Shown: one piece after another, positions 15,698 through 21,837 of the stretch
Position numbering within the stretch: position 1 is the first letter of the stretch
Layout of the letters: every line of letters starts with the position of its first letter
NCBI RefSeq assembly: GCF_013359775.1
Contig: NZ_JABMCI010000069.1
Coordinates: 124,001 to 188,000, forward strand
Direction: 5' to 3'
DNA from: Cellulomonas humilata
GTDB lineage: Bacteria; Actinomycetota; Actinomycetes; Actinomycetales; Cellulomonadaceae
Length of the DNA: 64,000 nt
Translations under genes and position numbers: made by a program
The notes under the pieces: generated by a model
Seen by the model: only the letters and a program-made list of their open reading frames with translations
Told to the model about the DNA's origin: nothing
Database searches by the model: none

Positions 15698-16369
15698 TCA
15701 GACGGCCGGCCCGGTCTCCTCGAGGAGCCGCAGGGCGGCGCTCACGCGGGGGTTGCGCTGCGGGTCGGCATCGATACCGAGCGTGGCGTACATCCCGTTG
15801 ACGTGGTTCTGTACAGACTTCTCCGTGATGCCCAGACGGTCGCCGATGCCGGCGTTCGACAGGCCGGACGCCAGCAGCCGGAGCACCTCGTACTGCCGGT
15901 CCGTGAGCCGGGCGACCGCCGACCCGGCCCGCGGGGTCATCCGCGCGATCAGCGCGGGGTCGAGCACCGTCTCCCCGACAGCGGCCGCGCGCACCGCGTT
16001 GACCAGCACCTCCTCGCTGGTCGAGGACGTCTTGGACAGGTAGCCCCAGCCCGAGGCGACATCGGCGGGCAGGTCCAGCAGGAGGTCCATGGCGTCGTGC
16101 GCCGACAGCAGCAGGATGCCGAGCGTGGGCATCCTGCGGCGCAACGTCACGCCCAGGGAGATGCCGTTGCCGTCGGGCAGGTCGATGTCCAGGACCACGC
16201 AGTCCACCAGGCCCGGGCGCAGCATGCGGGCGGCCTCCGTGGCCGTGCCGATGGCCGCGACGACGTGCAGGCCGGGGGTGCCGGACAGGGTGTGCTCGAG
16301 CATCGACCGGAACAGCGGCTGGTCCTCGACGACGGCGATGCGCAGGGGGTTGGTGCTGGGAACACTCAT
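15698..16369 (-). CDS. NarL/LuxR-family response regulator
   Basis: 223 aa. The receiver domain (residues about 8-125) has VVEDQPLFR for the acidic pocket, phospho-acceptor Asp in VVLDIDLPDG, a LSAHD switch and a KTSS lysine. A LuxR-type helix-turn-helix follows (LTDRQYEVLRLLASGLSNAGIGDRLGITEKSVQNHVNGMYATLGI). The ATG at 16369 sits 7 nt after GATACT, a leaderless start, which rejects the longer frame. The likely partner is the histidine kinase 112 nt away on the other strand. It is co-transcribed with the pentapeptide-repeat gene downstream. Confidence 0.92.
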   Translation of the reverse strand: MSVPSTNPLRIAVVEDQPLFRSMLEHTLSGTPGLHVVAAIGTATEAARMLRPGLVDCVVLDIDLPDGNGISLGVTLRRRMPTLGILLLSAHDAMDLLLDLPADVASGWGYLSKTSSTSEEVLVNAVRAAAVGETVLDPALIARMTPRAGSAVARLTDRQYEVLRLLASGLSNAGIGDRLGITEKSVQNHVNGMYATLGIDADPQRNPRVSAALRLLEETGPAV

Positions 16370-16481: not shown

Positions 16482-17654
16482 ATGACGACCCCGTCGACGG
16501 ACTCGGCCGCGGTGCTGGCTCTCCAGCGCGGCGACCTGCGACGTGACCAGATCACCCTGCTGCGCGGCACGGCGATCGTGGCGCTGGGCTACGGGTTGGG
16601 CGCAGCGCTCCAGCTGACCTACGTGTTCGCGGCGGACAGCCCGGCGTGGGCGTCCGTCCCGTTCTGGTCACGGCTCGCGTCGAACATCGCCGAGGTCGCC
16701 ATCCTCGTCGGGGTGCTCGCGGCGTTCCAGGCGCACCGCGCGACCCGCGTCTGGTGGATGGTCGCGTTCGTCGTCTCCGCCTCGGCGGTCGCAACCGTCG
16801 GCCGCTTCGGGGCCCAGCTCCTGTTCGGGGTGCACGAGGACCCGTCCGCCGCCGTGCGTGAGGCCGAGGTGGTCAGCGGCTTCATCCTCGCCGCGATCTC
16901 GGGCGGGATCGGCATGTGGGCCATGGCCACCCGGCGGGTGGCGAGGGTCCGCACCCGCGAGTCCACCCGGAACGCGGTGCACGTGGAGGTGGCGCTCAAG
17001 GCGCTCGAGCAGGAGGAGATCCGGGTCCGGCGGGCGGTCGCGGAAGGCTTGCACGGCACCCTGCAGAGCAAGCTCGTGCTCGTCGACGCGCGGTTGGCCG
17101 ACGTGCTCGCCCGCGCCCGGGAGCGCGGGATGGGCGCCGACGACGTGGAGTCGCTGGCGTGGGTGCGCACCGAGCTCGACGAGACTCGTGAGATCGACGT
17201 GCGCGAGATGAGCCGGCTGCTGTACCCCGACCGCCTCGAGCTCGGGCTGGTGCCGGCGCTGCGCGCGCTCCTGGGCCGCATCCCGGCCAGCATCGCCACG
17301 CGGCTGGCGGTGAGCGACGCCGTCCGGACGCTCGACGACCCGACCGCGTGCACCCTGACGGTCAGCGAGCGGCTGCTCGCGGTCCGGGTGGTGGAGGAGG
17401 GGCTGACCAACGCGCTCAAGCACGGCCCCGCCTCGTCGCTCGCCGTCGAGCTCGACGTGGCCGACGGCGTGCTGCACGTGAGGGTCGAGAACGACGGCGA
17501 GCTGTACGACCCCGCCGTCGCCGGGACGCCCTCGGGCACCGCCCGGCTGGGAATGCGGCTCAACCTCGTCGGCGGTCGGCTGGTCCTGTCGCCCGGTGCC
17601 GAGAAGGGTGCTCGCCTCGAGGCCTGGCTGCCCCTGGGGGCCGGCGCACAGTAG
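16482..17654 (+). CDS. membrane sensor histidine kinase, NarX/DesK-like
   Basis: 390 aa. Four hydrophobic helices fill the first 150 residues, with no sizeable extracellular sensor domain, so it may sense in or at the membrane. The dimerisation helix holds RRAVAEGLHGTLQSKLVLVDARL, where the His of GLHG is the probable phospho-acceptor (HisKA_3 arrangement). The ATPase domain has VVEEGLTNALKHGP (N box) and VENDGELYDP (G1 box), ending in GMRLNLVGGRLVLSPGAEKGARLEAWLPL. It diverges from the LuxR-type response regulator at 16369 and is followed by the exported-protein/signal-peptidase cassette. Confidence 0.9.
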   Translation: MTTPSTDSAAVLALQRGDLRRDQITLLRGTAIVALGYGLGAALQLTYVFAADSPAWASVPFWSRLASNIAEVAILVGVLAAFQAHRATRVWWMVAFVVSASAVATVGRFGAQLLFGVHEDPSAAVREAEVVSGFILAAISGGIGMWAMATRRVARVRTRESTRNAVHVEVALKALEQEEIRVRRAVAEGLHGTLQSKLVLVDARLADVLARARERGMGADDVESLAWVRTELDETREIDVREMSRLLYPDRLELGLVPALRALLGRIPASIATRLAVSDAVRTLDDPTACTLTVSERLLAVRVVEEGLTNALKHGPASSLAVELDVADGVLHVRVENDGELYDPAVAGTPSGTARLGMRLNLVGGRLVLSPGAEKGARLEAWLPLGAGAQ

Positions 17655-17862
17655 GACGTGTGTCCAGGTTGGGACGTCCGCCGGATTCGTCCGGGGTGAA
17701 AGAAACCGGCCTTTCGGGCCCCCCAGGTGCTGCCACCCAGACTTGGACGGGTGACCATGTCGATGAGACCTACGTTCGCGGTCGACCGCCACTGTGGCGA
17801 GTCTCCGTGTGGGTTTCGGTGAGGTACCGATTCCCCGGCACCTCACCCTCAGGAGAATCACC

Positions 17863-18336
17863 ATGGCTTCCACCAAGTCCAAGAAGTCCCGCAAGGGCAT
17901 CGCCGTCGCGCTGGCGTTCCTCGGCATCGCGGGCCTGTCGCTCGCGTCCGCCGCGCAGCTCAACCTGACCAACACGTCCTCGGCGCTGCCGCAGGCCGCC
18001 ACGACGACCGTGACCGGCGCCTGCCAGCAGACCGACATCGCCGTCTCGTTCGGCACGACCCCGGTCGCGGGCACGCTGGCCACCGGCGCCTCGTTCGGCT
18101 ACAACGCGACGGTCGACAGCCTGGTGCTCACGAAGATCGACGCCAACTGCGCCGGCAAGACGATCAAGATCGCCCTCGGCGACGCCACGGGCACCAAGCT
18201 CGGCACCGAGTACAGCTCCACCGTCGTCGCCGGCGGCGGCCCCCTGTCGCTCACGCTGAACGGCACCACGCCGCTCGTCACGATCCCCGCGGCCGACGTC
18301 TCCAAGATCGCGAAGGTCTCCGTCACGATCTACTGA
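17863..18336 (+). CDS. exported TasA/camelysin-like protein with SipW-type signal
   Basis: 157 aa. A basic N-terminus (MASTKSKKSRKG) precedes hydrophobic IAVALAFLGIAGLSLASAAQL. The ~120-residue Thr/Ala/Gly-rich domain has two Cys (GACQQTDIAVSF and DANCAGKTIKIALGD) and ends in VSKIAKVSVTIY. The pattern of short signal, ASAA-L junction, TxxGACxxxxV and I-xx-I-xx-x-CxGK is that of small actinobacterial exported proteins found beside ER-type signal peptidases. An AGGAGA ribosome-binding site is 6 nt before the ATG. It is first in a three-gene cassette with the signal peptidase 26 nt downstream. A structural surface or fibre role is inferred from the Bacillus tapA-sipW-tasA precedent. Confidence 0.78.
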   Translation: MASTKSKKSRKGIAVALAFLGIAGLSLASAAQLNLTNTSSALPQAATTTVTGACQQTDIAVSFGTTPVAGTLATGASFGYNATVDSLVLTKIDANCAGKTIKIALGDATGTKLGTEYSSTVVAGGGPLSLTLNGTTPLVTIPAADVSKIAKVSVTIY

Positions 18337-18362
18337 CGGAACCTGACCCGAGGCGTCCCTCC

Positions 18363-18953
18363 GTGGACACGAGCACCGCCGAAGCAGCCGACCGCACCGG
18401 TCGGCTGCTTCGGCGCGTCCGGGACGTCTTCTTCTGGGTCGCCGTCGCGGCCTGCGCGTGGCTCCTGTGGCCGTCCAGCGTCGGCGGCTGCACCACCCTG
18501 ATCATCGTCAGCGGCCACTCGATGGAGCCGACCTACGCCACCGGGGACCTCGTGGTCGCGCGGTGCGGCGAGCCGGCCGTCGGCGACGTCGTCGTCTACC
18601 GGCCGACGGAGCTGGGCGGCGACGCCCGCATCATCCACCGGGTGATCGGCGGCGACGCCACCGGGTGGCAGATCCAGGGCGACAACAACGACTGGGTCGA
18701 CCCGTTCGCACCGACCAACGACGAAGTGATCGGTGTCGCCGCGATCCACATCCCGAAGGTCGGCCTCGTGGCCTCGGCGATCGCGAGCCCGTGGATCTGG
18801 GCCAGCCTGATCGTCCTCGCGATCGCCCTCCTGGTGTGGCCGCGCGACGAGGACGACGAGGACGACGAGGAGCCGGCTCCGCCGGTCGGTGCCATGAGCT
18901 CCCGCGACGGGTCCGACCCGGTCCCGGAGCTCGACCCGGTGGCCGGATCATGA
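18363..18953 (+). CDS. ER-type (S26B, SipW-like) signal peptidase I
   Basis: 196 aa. An N-terminal transmembrane helix (FFWVAVAACAWLLWP) is followed by the catalytic-serine box SGHSMEPTYATGDLV, a VGDVVVYRP stretch, and RIIHRVIG with His in the place of the general-base Lys of ordinary bacterial enzymes. GDNN follows, and a second helix (IASPWIWASLIVLAIALLVW) precedes an acidic cytoplasmic tail. The Ser-His catalysis and two-helix topology define the S26B/SipW group, which usually process a few dedicated substrates, here presumably the two flanking exported proteins. The GTG start has GAGGCG upstream, and the stop overlaps the next ATG (ATGA). Confidence 0.93.
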   Translation: MDTSTAEAADRTGRLLRRVRDVFFWVAVAACAWLLWPSSVGGCTTLIIVSGHSMEPTYATGDLVVARCGEPAVGDVVVYRPTELGGDARIIHRVIGGDATGWQIQGDNNDWVDPFAPTNDEVIGVAAIHIPKVGLVASAIASPWIWASLIVLAIALLVWPRDEDDEDDEEPAPPVGAMSSRDGSDPVPELDPVAGS

Positions 18954-19771
18954 GCCACCGTCTCCGCGGCGGGGCCGTCGCCGCCCTGATCGCGCTCGCG
19001 ACGCTGGTCGCCCTGATGGTGGCGCCCGGATACGCCGCCGGCCTCACGCTCGTCGGCAAGTCCAGGCCCTTCGCGGCCACGTCGTCCAGCTGCACGACCG
19101 GCACCCTCACCGTCGCGCCGAGCGGCACCCCGGTTGCCGGGAAGTACACGGCGGTCACCGTCTCCGGGATCAAGGGCTCCACGTGCGCTACCGGCCGCGT
19201 CATCGTCTACGGGTCGTCGGCCCCCGGCACCATCGTCTTCACCGGCACGGGCACGGTCACGGGCACGACGATGACGGCGACATCGTCGGCGTTCACCCCG
19301 CCGGCCTCGGCGGCGGCGGCGGTCTACCTGACCCTCAACGGCTGGCTCGTGCGGGCAACGTGGGCCTATACGCCCCCGCCGCCCCCGCTGCTCAGCTGCA
19401 CGACCCCGTACGACGCGACTGCGACGTGCACGGCGACGGTCGCCAGTGGGACCCAGTGGCCTACGCCGCCGACCGACTACCTCGGGATGGTGCGGATCAG
19501 CACGACGTCGACGACCGCCGTGCGGTGGCGGATCACGATGAACCTGTCGGACGCCACCCTCCCGTTCCTGGCGAAGGCGCTGCTCGACACCCAGGGCGGC
19601 CTGGTCCTCATCGGCACGGTGGACTGCGCCGCGACCCCGCGGACGATCACGGTCGAGGGGACGACCGCCTGGGGCAACTACAACACCGTGGTCGCCGGGC
19701 GGACCGAGAACCTCCAGGTGCACGGGTACTCCACGGTCCAGTCGGGGACCCTGCTCCTGCGCTGCCCGTGA
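18950..19771 (+). CDS. exported Thr-rich protein, signal-peptidase cassette
   Basis: 273 aa. Signal region GGAVAALIALATLVALMVAPGYAAGLTLVG is followed by a domain of about 110 residues rich in Thr, Ser and Gly, a proline hinge (TPPPPPLLSC) and a second domain of about 140 residues with paired Cys. It ends in SGTLLLRCP. The composition suggests an all-beta secreted protein. The first domain has SSCTTGTLTVAPSGTP, which could carry an intramolecular disulfide. The start is fixed by the ATGA overlap with the signal-peptidase gene. I do not recognise a named family; by position it is a likely second substrate of the S26B peptidase. Confidence 0.8.
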   Translation: MSHRLRGGAVAALIALATLVALMVAPGYAAGLTLVGKSRPFAATSSSCTTGTLTVAPSGTPVAGKYTAVTVSGIKGSTCATGRVIVYGSSAPGTIVFTGTGTVTGTTMTATSSAFTPPASAAAAVYLTLNGWLVRATWAYTPPPPPLLSCTTPYDATATCTATVASGTQWPTPPTDYLGMVRISTTSTTAVRWRITMNLSDATLPFLAKALLDTQGGLVLIGTVDCAATPRTITVEGTTAWGNYNTVVAGRTENLQVHGYSTVQSGTLLLRCP

Positions 19772-19778
19772 CCGGACG

Positions 19779-20576
19779 TCAGTCCAGCGGAGCCAGCTCC
19801 GGCCGCTTCGGCACGCGCTCGTCGCCCGACGACTTCCCGCGCAACCGCCGGGTGGCCCACGGGTAGACGTGCTCCCGCACCCAGGCGGCGTCCTCGCGGG
19901 CCTTCGTCATCCGGGGTGTCGGCGGCAGCGGGGTGAGCGGGTCGTCCCAGGAGGCGTCGTCGGGGTCCAGCCCCAGCCCCACCAGGGCGCCCTGCGCCAC
20001 GCGGGCGTGACCGTCGGTGGTCAGGTGGATGCGGTCGTCGGCCCACATCCGCCAGTCCCGCAGCGAGCGCATGCCCCACAGGTCCACCACGTAGGCGCCG
20101 TGCCGACGTGCCATCGACCAGATGAGCGCGTTGTAGATCCCGACCCGGCTGCGCGTGGCCTTCACCAGCGGGCTGTCCGCGGCGTCGACGCCCGTGCCGA
20201 GCAGCACGTCGACGCCCGCCTCGCGCAGGCGGACGACGCCGGCCTCGAGGTTGCGGGCCAGCCGGTCGATGTCGGCGGTGGGACGCAGGATGTCGTTGCC
20301 GCCGCCGACCAGGCTCACGAGGTCCGGCTTCAGCGCGAGCGCCGCGGGCACCTGCTCGACGAGGATCGGGCGCAGCAGCCGCCCGCGGATGGCGAGGTTC
20401 GCGTACTGCAGCGGTGACTCGCCCGCGGCGGAGCGTCGCTGCGACAGGTGCGACGCCAGCAGGTCCGCCCATCCGCGCTGCGGTGCCTCGACGCCGTCGG
20501 GGGAGTCCCACAGGCCCTCGGTGAACGAGTCGCCGATCGCCACGTACCGGGACCAGGGCGGGATCTGGTTGCTCAC
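19779..20576 (-). CDS. SGNH/GDSL hydrolase
   Basis: 265 aa. Block I is AIGDSFTEGLWDS with the nucleophilic Ser near residue 17, block II Gly in ANLAIRGR, block III GGGNDIL, and block V DRIHLTTDGH with the catalytic Asp-His pair. There is no signal peptide, so it is a cytoplasmic esterase or acyl-hydrolase of lipase_GDSL_2 type. The C-terminal 60 residues carry extra basic helices after the catalytic core. The GTG start lies 6 nt after CACAAT, an imperfect leaderless -10. It converges on the exported-protein gene with 7 nt between stops. Substrate unknown. Confidence 0.92.
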   Translation of the reverse strand: MSNQIPPWSRYVAIGDSFTEGLWDSPDGVEAPQRGWADLLASHLSQRRSAAGESPLQYANLAIRGRLLRPILVEQVPAALALKPDLVSLVGGGNDILRPTADIDRLARNLEAGVVRLREAGVDVLLGTGVDAADSPLVKATRSRVGIYNALIWSMARRHGAYVVDLWGMRSLRDWRMWADDRIHLTTDGHARVAQGALVGLGLDPDDASWDDPLTPLPPTPRMTKAREDAAWVREHVYPWATRRLRGKSSGDERVPKRPELAPLD

Positions 20577-20670
20577 CGGGACATTGTGCCCGCGCTCGCG
20601 AACTCCTCAACTCACCTGTGTCCTGGTCGATGGGCCGGGTGAGGACCAGGTCCCGCACTCGGGGCAGGGC

Positions 20671-20696
20671 GCGTCACGACCACACGATCGTGACGC
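20671..20696. promoter_or_regulatory. 9-bp inverted repeat upstream of a small exported-protein gene
   Basis: GCGTCACGA (20671-20679) and TCGTGACGC (20688-20696) form a perfect dyad with an 8-nt spacer, 64 nt before the ATG at 20761. It may be an operator or a transcript hairpin. Confidence 0.4.
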
Positions 20697-20760
20697 CGAC
20701 GCCGAGCAGGATGCTGACGCCGCCTCCACGCGCACGACCGCGCCCACGGAGGGGAGCGTC

Positions 20761-21159
20761 ATGACGTCGACCCGAAGACGCGTCGGCCCGTCGTCCGAGC
20801 GGCTGTTCTGGGCAGGCTCGCTGGTCGGGCTCGCCATCGCGGGCATGTTCGCGTCCGCGCGGTTCGCGGGACAGACCGTCTCCGCCGCCTCGGGGTGCGA
20901 CACCTCGACGGTCGACTGGGGCTACGAGGTCGAGCTGAGCCCTGGCACGGGGGCCTACTCGCTCGCCGGGACGCGCTTCGACCGGGTCCCCCCGGGGTGT
21001 GCCGGCGCGCGGGCGGTGATCGTCTACCGCGACGACCAGCAGGTGCAGCACCGGTCCGAGGTGGTGCTCGTCGCCGGGCTGGTGGACCAGCTGGCCGACG
21101 AGGTGTGGACCGCGCACGCCCTGACCAGGGCCTCGTGGGGGATCGTCTCGGGGACCTGA
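20761..21159 (+). CDS. small membrane/exported protein, unknown
   Basis: 132 aa with one hydrophobic segment near residues 14-32 (LFWAGSLVGLAIAGMFASARFAG), then an extracytoplasmic domain of about 95 residues. The domain has two Cys (SGCDTSTVDWGYEVEL and VPPGCAGARAVIVY) that could form a disulfide. GGAGGGGAGC precedes the ATG. The domain pattern (CDTSTVDW..., GCAG...VIVYRDD) loosely recalls the small exported proteins served by the S26B peptidase 2 kb upstream, but I could not establish homology. Its TGA abuts the ung stop; the two stop codons sit in a perfect palindrome ACCTGATCAGGT (21154-21165). Confidence 0.66.
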   Translation: MTSTRRRVGPSSERLFWAGSLVGLAIAGMFASARFAGQTVSAASGCDTSTVDWGYEVELSPGTGAYSLAGTRFDRVPPGCAGARAVIVYRDDQQVQHRSEVVLVAGLVDQLADEVWTAHALTRASWGIVSGT

Positions 21160-21837
21160 TCAGGTCAGCGACCAGTCCACCGGGTCCGCGCCCTGCGCCA
21201 CCAGCAGCTCGTTGACGCGGGAGAACGGCCGGGAGCCGAAGAACCCGCGGCTCGCGGACAGCGGGCTGGGGTGCACGCTCTCGACCGTCGGCACGGACCC
21301 GAGGGCGGGCTTGAGCGACTGCGCGTCCCGCCCCCAGAGCACCGCGACGAGGGGGCCGCCGCGCTCGACGAGGGCCGCGATCGCCCGGTCGGTCACCGCC
21401 TCCCACCCGTGCCGCCGGTGCGACGCGGGCGCCCCCGGACGGACCGTGAGCACCCTGTTGAGCAGCATCACGCCCTGGTCGGCCCACGGGGACAGGTCGC
21501 CGCTGGTCGGGGGTGCCACGCCGACGTCCGCCACCAGCTCGGTGAAGATGTTGGTCAGCGACCGCGGCAGGGGCCGGACGTCGGGCTGCACCGAGAAGGA
21601 CAGGCCCATCGGGTGCCCCGGCGTCGGGTACGGGTCCTGGCCGACGACGAGCACGCGAACCTCCGCGAGCGGCCGCCGGAAGGCCCGCAGCACGGCATCT
21701 CCGGCCGGCAGGTAGCTGCGCCCGGCCGCGACCTCGTCGCGCAGGAACTGCCCCGCCGCGCGAAGCTGCGGCTCGACCGGTGCGAGGGCGACGGCCCAGT
21801 CGGGGGCGACGAGCTGGTCCAGCGGCGCGGCGGTCAC
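21160..21837 (-). CDS. ung: uracil-DNA glycosylase, family 1
   Basis: 225 aa. It removes uracil from DNA to start base-excision repair. The water-activating loop [20 protein letters not shown] holds the catalytic Asp and Tyr of GQDPY. A Phe-containing base pocket ([11 protein letters not shown]), [24 protein letters not shown] and the DNA-intercalation loop [18 protein letters not shown] with the catalytic His are all present. The GTG at 21837 lies 7 nt after TAGCCT, a leaderless arrangement, so the upstream extension of 16 residues is rejected. Confidence 0.95.

Follow-up and report, generated by a model that had tools for sequence, protein, structure and literature searches.

What kind of system is encoded where the genes of a small exported protein, a signal peptidase and a second exported protein lie packed one behind the other? 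The question is raised by a three-gene cassette in the 4.65-Mb genome of Cellulomonas humilata, within a stretch of 64,000 nucleotides (the window, to which positions refer unless another locus is named). An earlier note, made from the sequence alone, had likened this arrangement to tapA-sipW-tasA of Bacillus and had proposed a dedicated surface-fibre or matrix system. The gene set is conserved and, within the reach of our searches, undescribed; we propose that it encodes a surface system with a dedicated signal peptidase, a subunit family of its own and an exchangeable adhesin. Membership of its small exported protein in the TasA family is not supported. Literature searches, with preprints and most subscription papers outside their scope, returned nothing on this cassette, which is composed of the following elements.

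17863-18336, + strand: P1, small exported protein of 157 amino acids, predicted major subunit
18363-18953, + strand: P2, signal peptidase of the endoplasmic reticulum (ER)/archaeal type, 196 amino acids, GTG start, assigned by TIGR02228, SEC11 relatives and invariant residues
18950-19771, + strand: P3, exported two-domain protein of 273 amino acids, proposed adhesin
19040-19369, + strand: N-terminal P1-like domain of P3, about residues 31-140, assigned by reciprocal P1/P3 profile matches
19388-19768, + strand: C-terminal CBM2-like domain of P3, about residues 147-273, preceded by a linker rich in Pro
18377-18415, + strand: perfect 18-bp inverted repeat with a 3-nt loop, within the first codons of P2

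The 26-nt gap between P1 and P2 and the 4-nt ATGA overlap of P2 with P3 are as the earlier note gave them, with all coordinates exact. We surveyed 200 genomes of the bacterial family, counting P1, P3 and P4 (a small exported protein encoded farther downstream) at E ≤ 0.001 and P2 at E ≤ 1e-6. Matches were found in 62 genomes for P1, 36 for P3 and 27 for P4; the P2 profile matched in 127, many of its weaker matches being other peptidases of its family. Linkage was counted with the best 69 of the P2 matches listed. For 61 of the 68 P1 matches, one of these lay on the same strand, no more than 700 nt farther downstream. The seven unlinked ones comprise two at contig ends, three extra copies near a cassette and two within frames of ~1,400 amino acids. 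P3 followed P2 in 34 of 36 P3 matches, and P4 did so in 22 of 28.

The same gene order emerged from 68 loci picked for a strong P2 match, so that the counts are conditional on P2 (67 of 68 prepared regions were taken in, and the second cassette of genome G176 was left out). P1 lay upstream of P2 in 66 of them and a P3-type gene downstream in 60, including L118 and L160, both dropped from the P3 alignment as not being clean two-domain proteins. A further P1-domain protein was found at 1.3-4.2 kb in 38 loci and a two-component pair in 46. All 156 P1-domain matches in these loci were on the cassette strand, with 0 on the opposite one. Genes without a clear link to the cassette are also conserved around it, however (SGNH in 56 of 68 loci, UDG in 53), and synteny within the family is therefore partly passive, which counts against reading the cassette as a functional unit from gene order within the family.

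Pairing of P1 with P2 in distant genomes is a stronger test. Across the phylum, the P1 profile matched in 8 of 396 genomes, our own included. In six of the seven distant genomes, which represent six other families, the gene of a P2-type peptidase (122-148 bits) has one to four P1-type genes next to it, all in its own orientation; in the seventh, the stretch is cut by the contig end. As for the layout of these distant loci (L237-L243), the one to four P1-type genes stand in tandem beside the peptidase, without a clear P3.

That P2 is a signal peptidase of the ER type, with a Ser-His active site, was borne out. The protein matches TIGR02228 at 59.1 bits (cut-off 51.85), and its sequence relatives in the PDB at E ≤ 1 are three, all of them SEC11A/C entries. 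In an alignment of 77 loci, three of them duplicates of others, residues S53, H92, D107 and D113 show 100% conservation. Most relatives of P2 that bear a name come from Cellulomonas, with one each from Demequina, Ancrocorticia and Pseudactinotalea. Since signal peptidase I, the housekeeping enzyme (134.2 bits), is encoded elsewhere in the genome, P2 is an extra one. Processing of P1 and P3 by P2 is likely.

How strictly the exported proteins would depend on P2 is another matter. The P1 site reads AxA↓[AS]QLN, whereas that of TasA is given as TWA↓AFND in the parts of PMC10269814 that we draw on; there, Trp at cleavage-site position P2 (not to be confused with the protein) and an aromatic residue, Phe, at P2' are described as blocking LepB, the general peptidase. 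The P1 site has neither feature, and a general peptidase might therefore cut it, which argues against a strict requirement for P2. At the extreme, P2 would be redundant, present by chance in a conserved neighbourhood, with the housekeeping enzyme cutting P1 and P3. The ordinary AxA site of P1, the presence of a housekeeping peptidase and conservation of the entire neighbourhood in the family all agree with such redundancy, but the joint occurrence of P1 and P2 in six of seven distant genomes makes it highly improbable.

The exported proteins of the P1, P3 and P4 types are, by profile comparison, members of one small two-cysteine domain family. The P1 signal peptide spans about residues 1-30 (ASA↓AQLNL), its cleavage site being placed by the conserved AxA, and the mature part is a predicted beta domain with two cysteines, C54 and C96, a pair that is 93% conserved in 73 loci. 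The A-x-A that ends the signal is invariant and is followed by [AS]-Q-L-N-L; mature positions 3 and 5 are hydrophobic in 91% and 88% of 64 P1 sequences, respectively. This first mature strand is conserved in sequence and unordered in the monomer model. The P1 profile matches P3-type and P4-type proteins, for instance P3 of L151 at 39.8 bits and P4 of L123 at 48.3 bits (matches are quoted in bits, the printed E-values being conditional), and the P3 profile matches P1 of the window at 21.5 bits. P3 of the window was not among the matches listed for the P1 profile, and P4 of the window matches it weakly (14.1 bits, independent E-value 0.02), a point against a shared family within the window itself. 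The similar Cys pattern that the earlier note had seen in P4 thus holds at the level of the family, where the P1 profile matches P3 and P4 types in many loci, and is faint in the window; P4 is a probable further member.

Existing models do not recognize this family. Among 49 P1 proteins, NCBIfam, including its “alternate signal” families, gave no meaningful match (best E 0.013), and Pfam gave scattered single matches with no pattern. P1-type proteins are therefore probably annotated merely as hypothetical. The fold model of P1 is too poor to decide its structure (mean predicted local distance difference test score, pLDDT, 57.1), its best VIA Z being 5.9, to generic immunoglobulin (Ig)/FnIII rows.

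We then considered what P3 adds to this domain. Its model is better (pLDDT 77.6, with the N-terminal domain mostly at 82-92 from residue 51 on), and its C-terminal half had been noted as CBM2-like from the sequence ahead of any fold search. In VIA, the top row for the C-terminal domain was the CBM2 of Clostridium cellulovorans EngD (3ndy_E; Z 7.0, root-mean-square deviation 3.9, 88 residues aligned), and the next row had a Z of 5.6. A profile of 18 P3 C-terminal domains (out of 22 listed full-length sequences, after near-duplicates and L121 were dropped) scored 32.6 against 15 same-genome CBM2 domains, with a probability of 69-72%; the best of 100 column shuffles reached 22.2, the reversed profile 11.7 and fn3 14.3. 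In two of 61 P3 relatives, the C-terminal domain is replaced by Ricin_B_lectin (PF00652; 71.0 and 77.9 bits, cut-off 29). By fold and by profile, the domain tentatively resembles the CBM2 of actinobacterial polysaccharide enzymes while lying below Pfam recognition, and the swap for an actinobacterial ricin-type lectin domain is clear in the two relatives. In those enzymes, CBM2 and lectin domains sit on the enzyme, whereas in P3 the domain is fused to a subunit-like one.

A stem resembling a subunit and bearing a glycan-binding domain that can be exchanged is what an adhesin would be expected to look like; on the whole, we lean towards P3 as a glycan-binding adhesin. Several results pull the other way. 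Foldseek placed CBM2 at rank 30 (E 0.025), with antibody folds ahead of it, and a VIA Z below 8, such as the 7.0 of the CBM2 row, can reflect a common arrangement. The Pfam model of CBM2, PF00553, matched 0 of 18 P3 C-terminal domains at E ≤ 1 and 0 of 61 P3 proteins at E ≤ 0.01. A second type of P3 C-terminal domain scored 41.5 against the window type, 17.2 against CBM2 and 18.2 against fn3, CBM2 being no better than fn3. Finally, the lectin-bearing form is limited to those two relatives.

Codon usage sets P1 apart from its partners. We built the codon table from 12 EF-Tu/ribosomal genes, recognized by eye in one ribosomal region of the same genome, and compared it with 53 open reading frames (ORFs) of the window chosen mechanically by G+C content at third codon positions (GC3). 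The codon adaptation of P1 is 0.898, against 0.62-0.87 for the 12 reference genes and at most 0.877 for the 53 window ORFs; P2, P3 and P4 have values of 0.725, 0.699 and 0.611, respectively. P1 exceeded P2 in 65 of 72 loci, a count that is approximate since it uses the table of the window genome. By this measure, P1 looks like a very highly expressed, abundant subunit.

The inverted repeat at the P1-P2 junction may contribute to such an imbalance. The hairpin starts 40 nt past the P1 stop codon and has an RNA z of -6.1. Stems of at least 10 bp lying at most 160 nt from the P1 stop were found in 44 of 66 loci, as opposed to 0 of 66 in each of two equal control stretches, inside P1 and inside P2; an alternative tally, 49 of 75 loci, includes three duplicates. 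As no run of T follows the conserved hairpin directly, we do not claim a simple intrinsic terminator. A sigma-70 scan of 17600-21200 yielded no promoter-like site. We infer that the hairpin could be a device for making P1 in excess over P2 and P3.

Does the cassette then belong with TasA and SipW? Like tapA-sipW-tasA of Bacillus subtilis and sipW-calY of Bacillus cereus, it co-encodes an ER-type peptidase with small exported beta proteins, one of them apparently abundant, and that part of the proposed Bacillus logic stands. P1 also resembles TasA/camelysin in having a conserved strand at its mature N terminus. It differs in its conserved Cys pair and in not being recognized by PF12389, which matched none of 49 P1 proteins at E ≤ 0.1 and none of P1, P3 and P4 of the window at E ≤ 1. 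Unlike in the Bacillus fibre cassettes, the partner protein here carries a putative glycan-binding domain, and the order is subunit-peptidase-adhesin. When PDB sequences were searched with the P1 profile for TasA kinship, the sole matches were part of a transporter, aligned to the signal peptide (best E 0.13), and a cyanovirin at E 7.4, and kinship by this route was rejected. TasA/camelysin was not among the 50 fold rows listed for P1 or P3, an absence that proves nothing.

It could be argued that the cassette is a genuine TasA/SipW (camelysin) system, only too divergent for profiles to recognize. The gene logic is the same, and in a profile comparison with 22 PF12389 proteins of the phylum P1 scored 23.9 over 44 columns, above the best of 100 column shuffles (15.8). 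That alignment, however, is confined to the signal and the first mature strand and carries a probability of 9.6%, with nothing past the N terminus. P2 reaches 27 bits with the Bacillus SipW equivalog NF046067 (cut-off 190), less than a second peptidase of the genome, which scores 50.8 bits with that model and 55.9 bits with TIGR02228. This enzyme is encoded on contig C27 (L236, 5127-6579), 4 nt after an exported protein of the camelysin type that matches PF12389 at 24.6 bits and the TasA model weakly (28.3 bits, cut-off 450). The C27 cassette likewise has an ER-type peptidase directly after an exported protein, but the latter shows no homology to P1 beyond the N terminus. Divergence from TasA is thus improbable for P1-P2-P3, and by these scores the C27 pair is the better TasA/SipW-like candidate. 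The earlier likening of the exported proteins to TasA is not supported; what the sequences do suggest is a role in surface adhesion, from the CBM2-like or lectin domain of P3 and the high codon adaptation of P1.

How such a unit might work can be outlined as follows. P1 and P3, and probably P4, would be exported through Sec, their signal peptides ending in ASA↓[A/S], and P2 would cut the exported proteins. The structure would be built chiefly of P1, the abundant subunit, whereas P3, a minor one, would join its P1-like domain through a proline-rich linker to a domain that binds carbohydrate; the junction hairpin would hold expression of P1 far above that of P2 and P3. After cleavage, each protein would begin with a short strand of alternating hydrophobic residues (A-Q-L-N-L). 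By inserting into the next subunit, this strand may link P1 molecules into a thin fibre or coat. P3, displayed there, would attach the cell to cellulose or to a comparable glycan. This is the reading that we prefer, namely that the cassette by itself provides for the export and processing of surface-adhesion proteins, with a dedicated signal peptidase, an abundant subunit and an exchangeable carbohydrate-binding adhesin; we consider the case for it evenly balanced.

Polymerization is the speculative part of this scheme. According to excerpts of PMC9674648 and PMC10151520, TasA polymerizes through its mature N-terminal strand, as a donor strand. A possible N-terminal strand linking subunits is also what P1 would share with the donor-strand fibres of archaeal threads and chaperone-usher pili (PMC9715654). 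The cassette has no chaperone or usher, and linkage of P1 is putative. Nothing seen in the analysis, in which only monomers were modelled, indicates polymerization of P1. No sortase motif was seen in either P1 or P3, nor any membrane anchor, and by eye their C termini (KVSVTIY and LLLRCP, respectively) hold no sorting signal of the LPXTG type. These points weigh against a surface fibre. That P1 forms fibres by means of a donor strand at its N terminus is a tentative proposal, with about an even chance or less.

The same sequence evidence fits a surface coat or secreted carbohydrate-binding proteins without fibres, P2 processing P1 and P3, P1 forming a coat or being soluble at high level, and P3 acting as a separate lectin bound to the wall or matrix. 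The cassette shows no assembly factor, and P1 is modelled as a sandwich of the generic Ig/FnIII kind, both as a fibre-less coat would have it; on the other hand, the P1-like domain with which P3 begins and the conservation of the N-terminal strand after cleavage suggest contact between subunits. We give this explanation a minority chance, though a substantial one. The full form of the fibre proposal, in which a system of Actinomycetota arose apart from TasA, P2 frees the donor strand of P1 and the fibres are tipped by the paralogous P3 with its exchangeable glycan-binding domain, here for cellulose, is possible and on balance doubtful. What is understood of signal peptidases dedicated to fibre proteins comes mainly from TasA of Bacillus and its relatives. 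If true, the existence of another such lineage, one whose sugar-binding partner is exchangeable, would mean that the same logic arose or was rebuilt elsewhere, and it would offer a testable attachment system for cellulose-degrading actinobacteria, perhaps with sticky fibres that grip plant polysaccharides.

Around the cassette, three further genes are of note.

20761-21159, + strand: P4, small exported protein of 132 amino acids with two Cys in its mature part
16482-17654, + strand: histidine kinase of the adjacent two-component system
15698-16369, - strand: NarL/LuxR-type response regulator, divergent from the kinase

A gene on the opposite strand stands between P4 and the cassette. The LuxR-type regulator and kinase lie immediately upstream of P1, as the earlier note had stated: the positions agree, the regulator has Response_reg and GerE/LuxR domains, both above cut-off, and the HATPase_c match of the kinase, at 24.8 bits, falls just below its cut-off of 26.4. 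Control of the cassette by this pair is a speculation from adjacency.

Some related loci are more elaborate. In five loci of one genus (L117, L118, L122, L140 and L144), extra P1-like genes follow P2 and no two-component pair is adjacent. Directly 3′ of the first cassette, L034 (8778-10205) has another triplet of P1-like, P2-like and P1-like genes, as does L102 in the same region. In L037 (8878-10190), the cassette is followed on its 3′ side by an exported protein and then a gene resembling an ER-type peptidase; judged by eye, the signal of that exported protein resembles the classical SipW-dependent kind.
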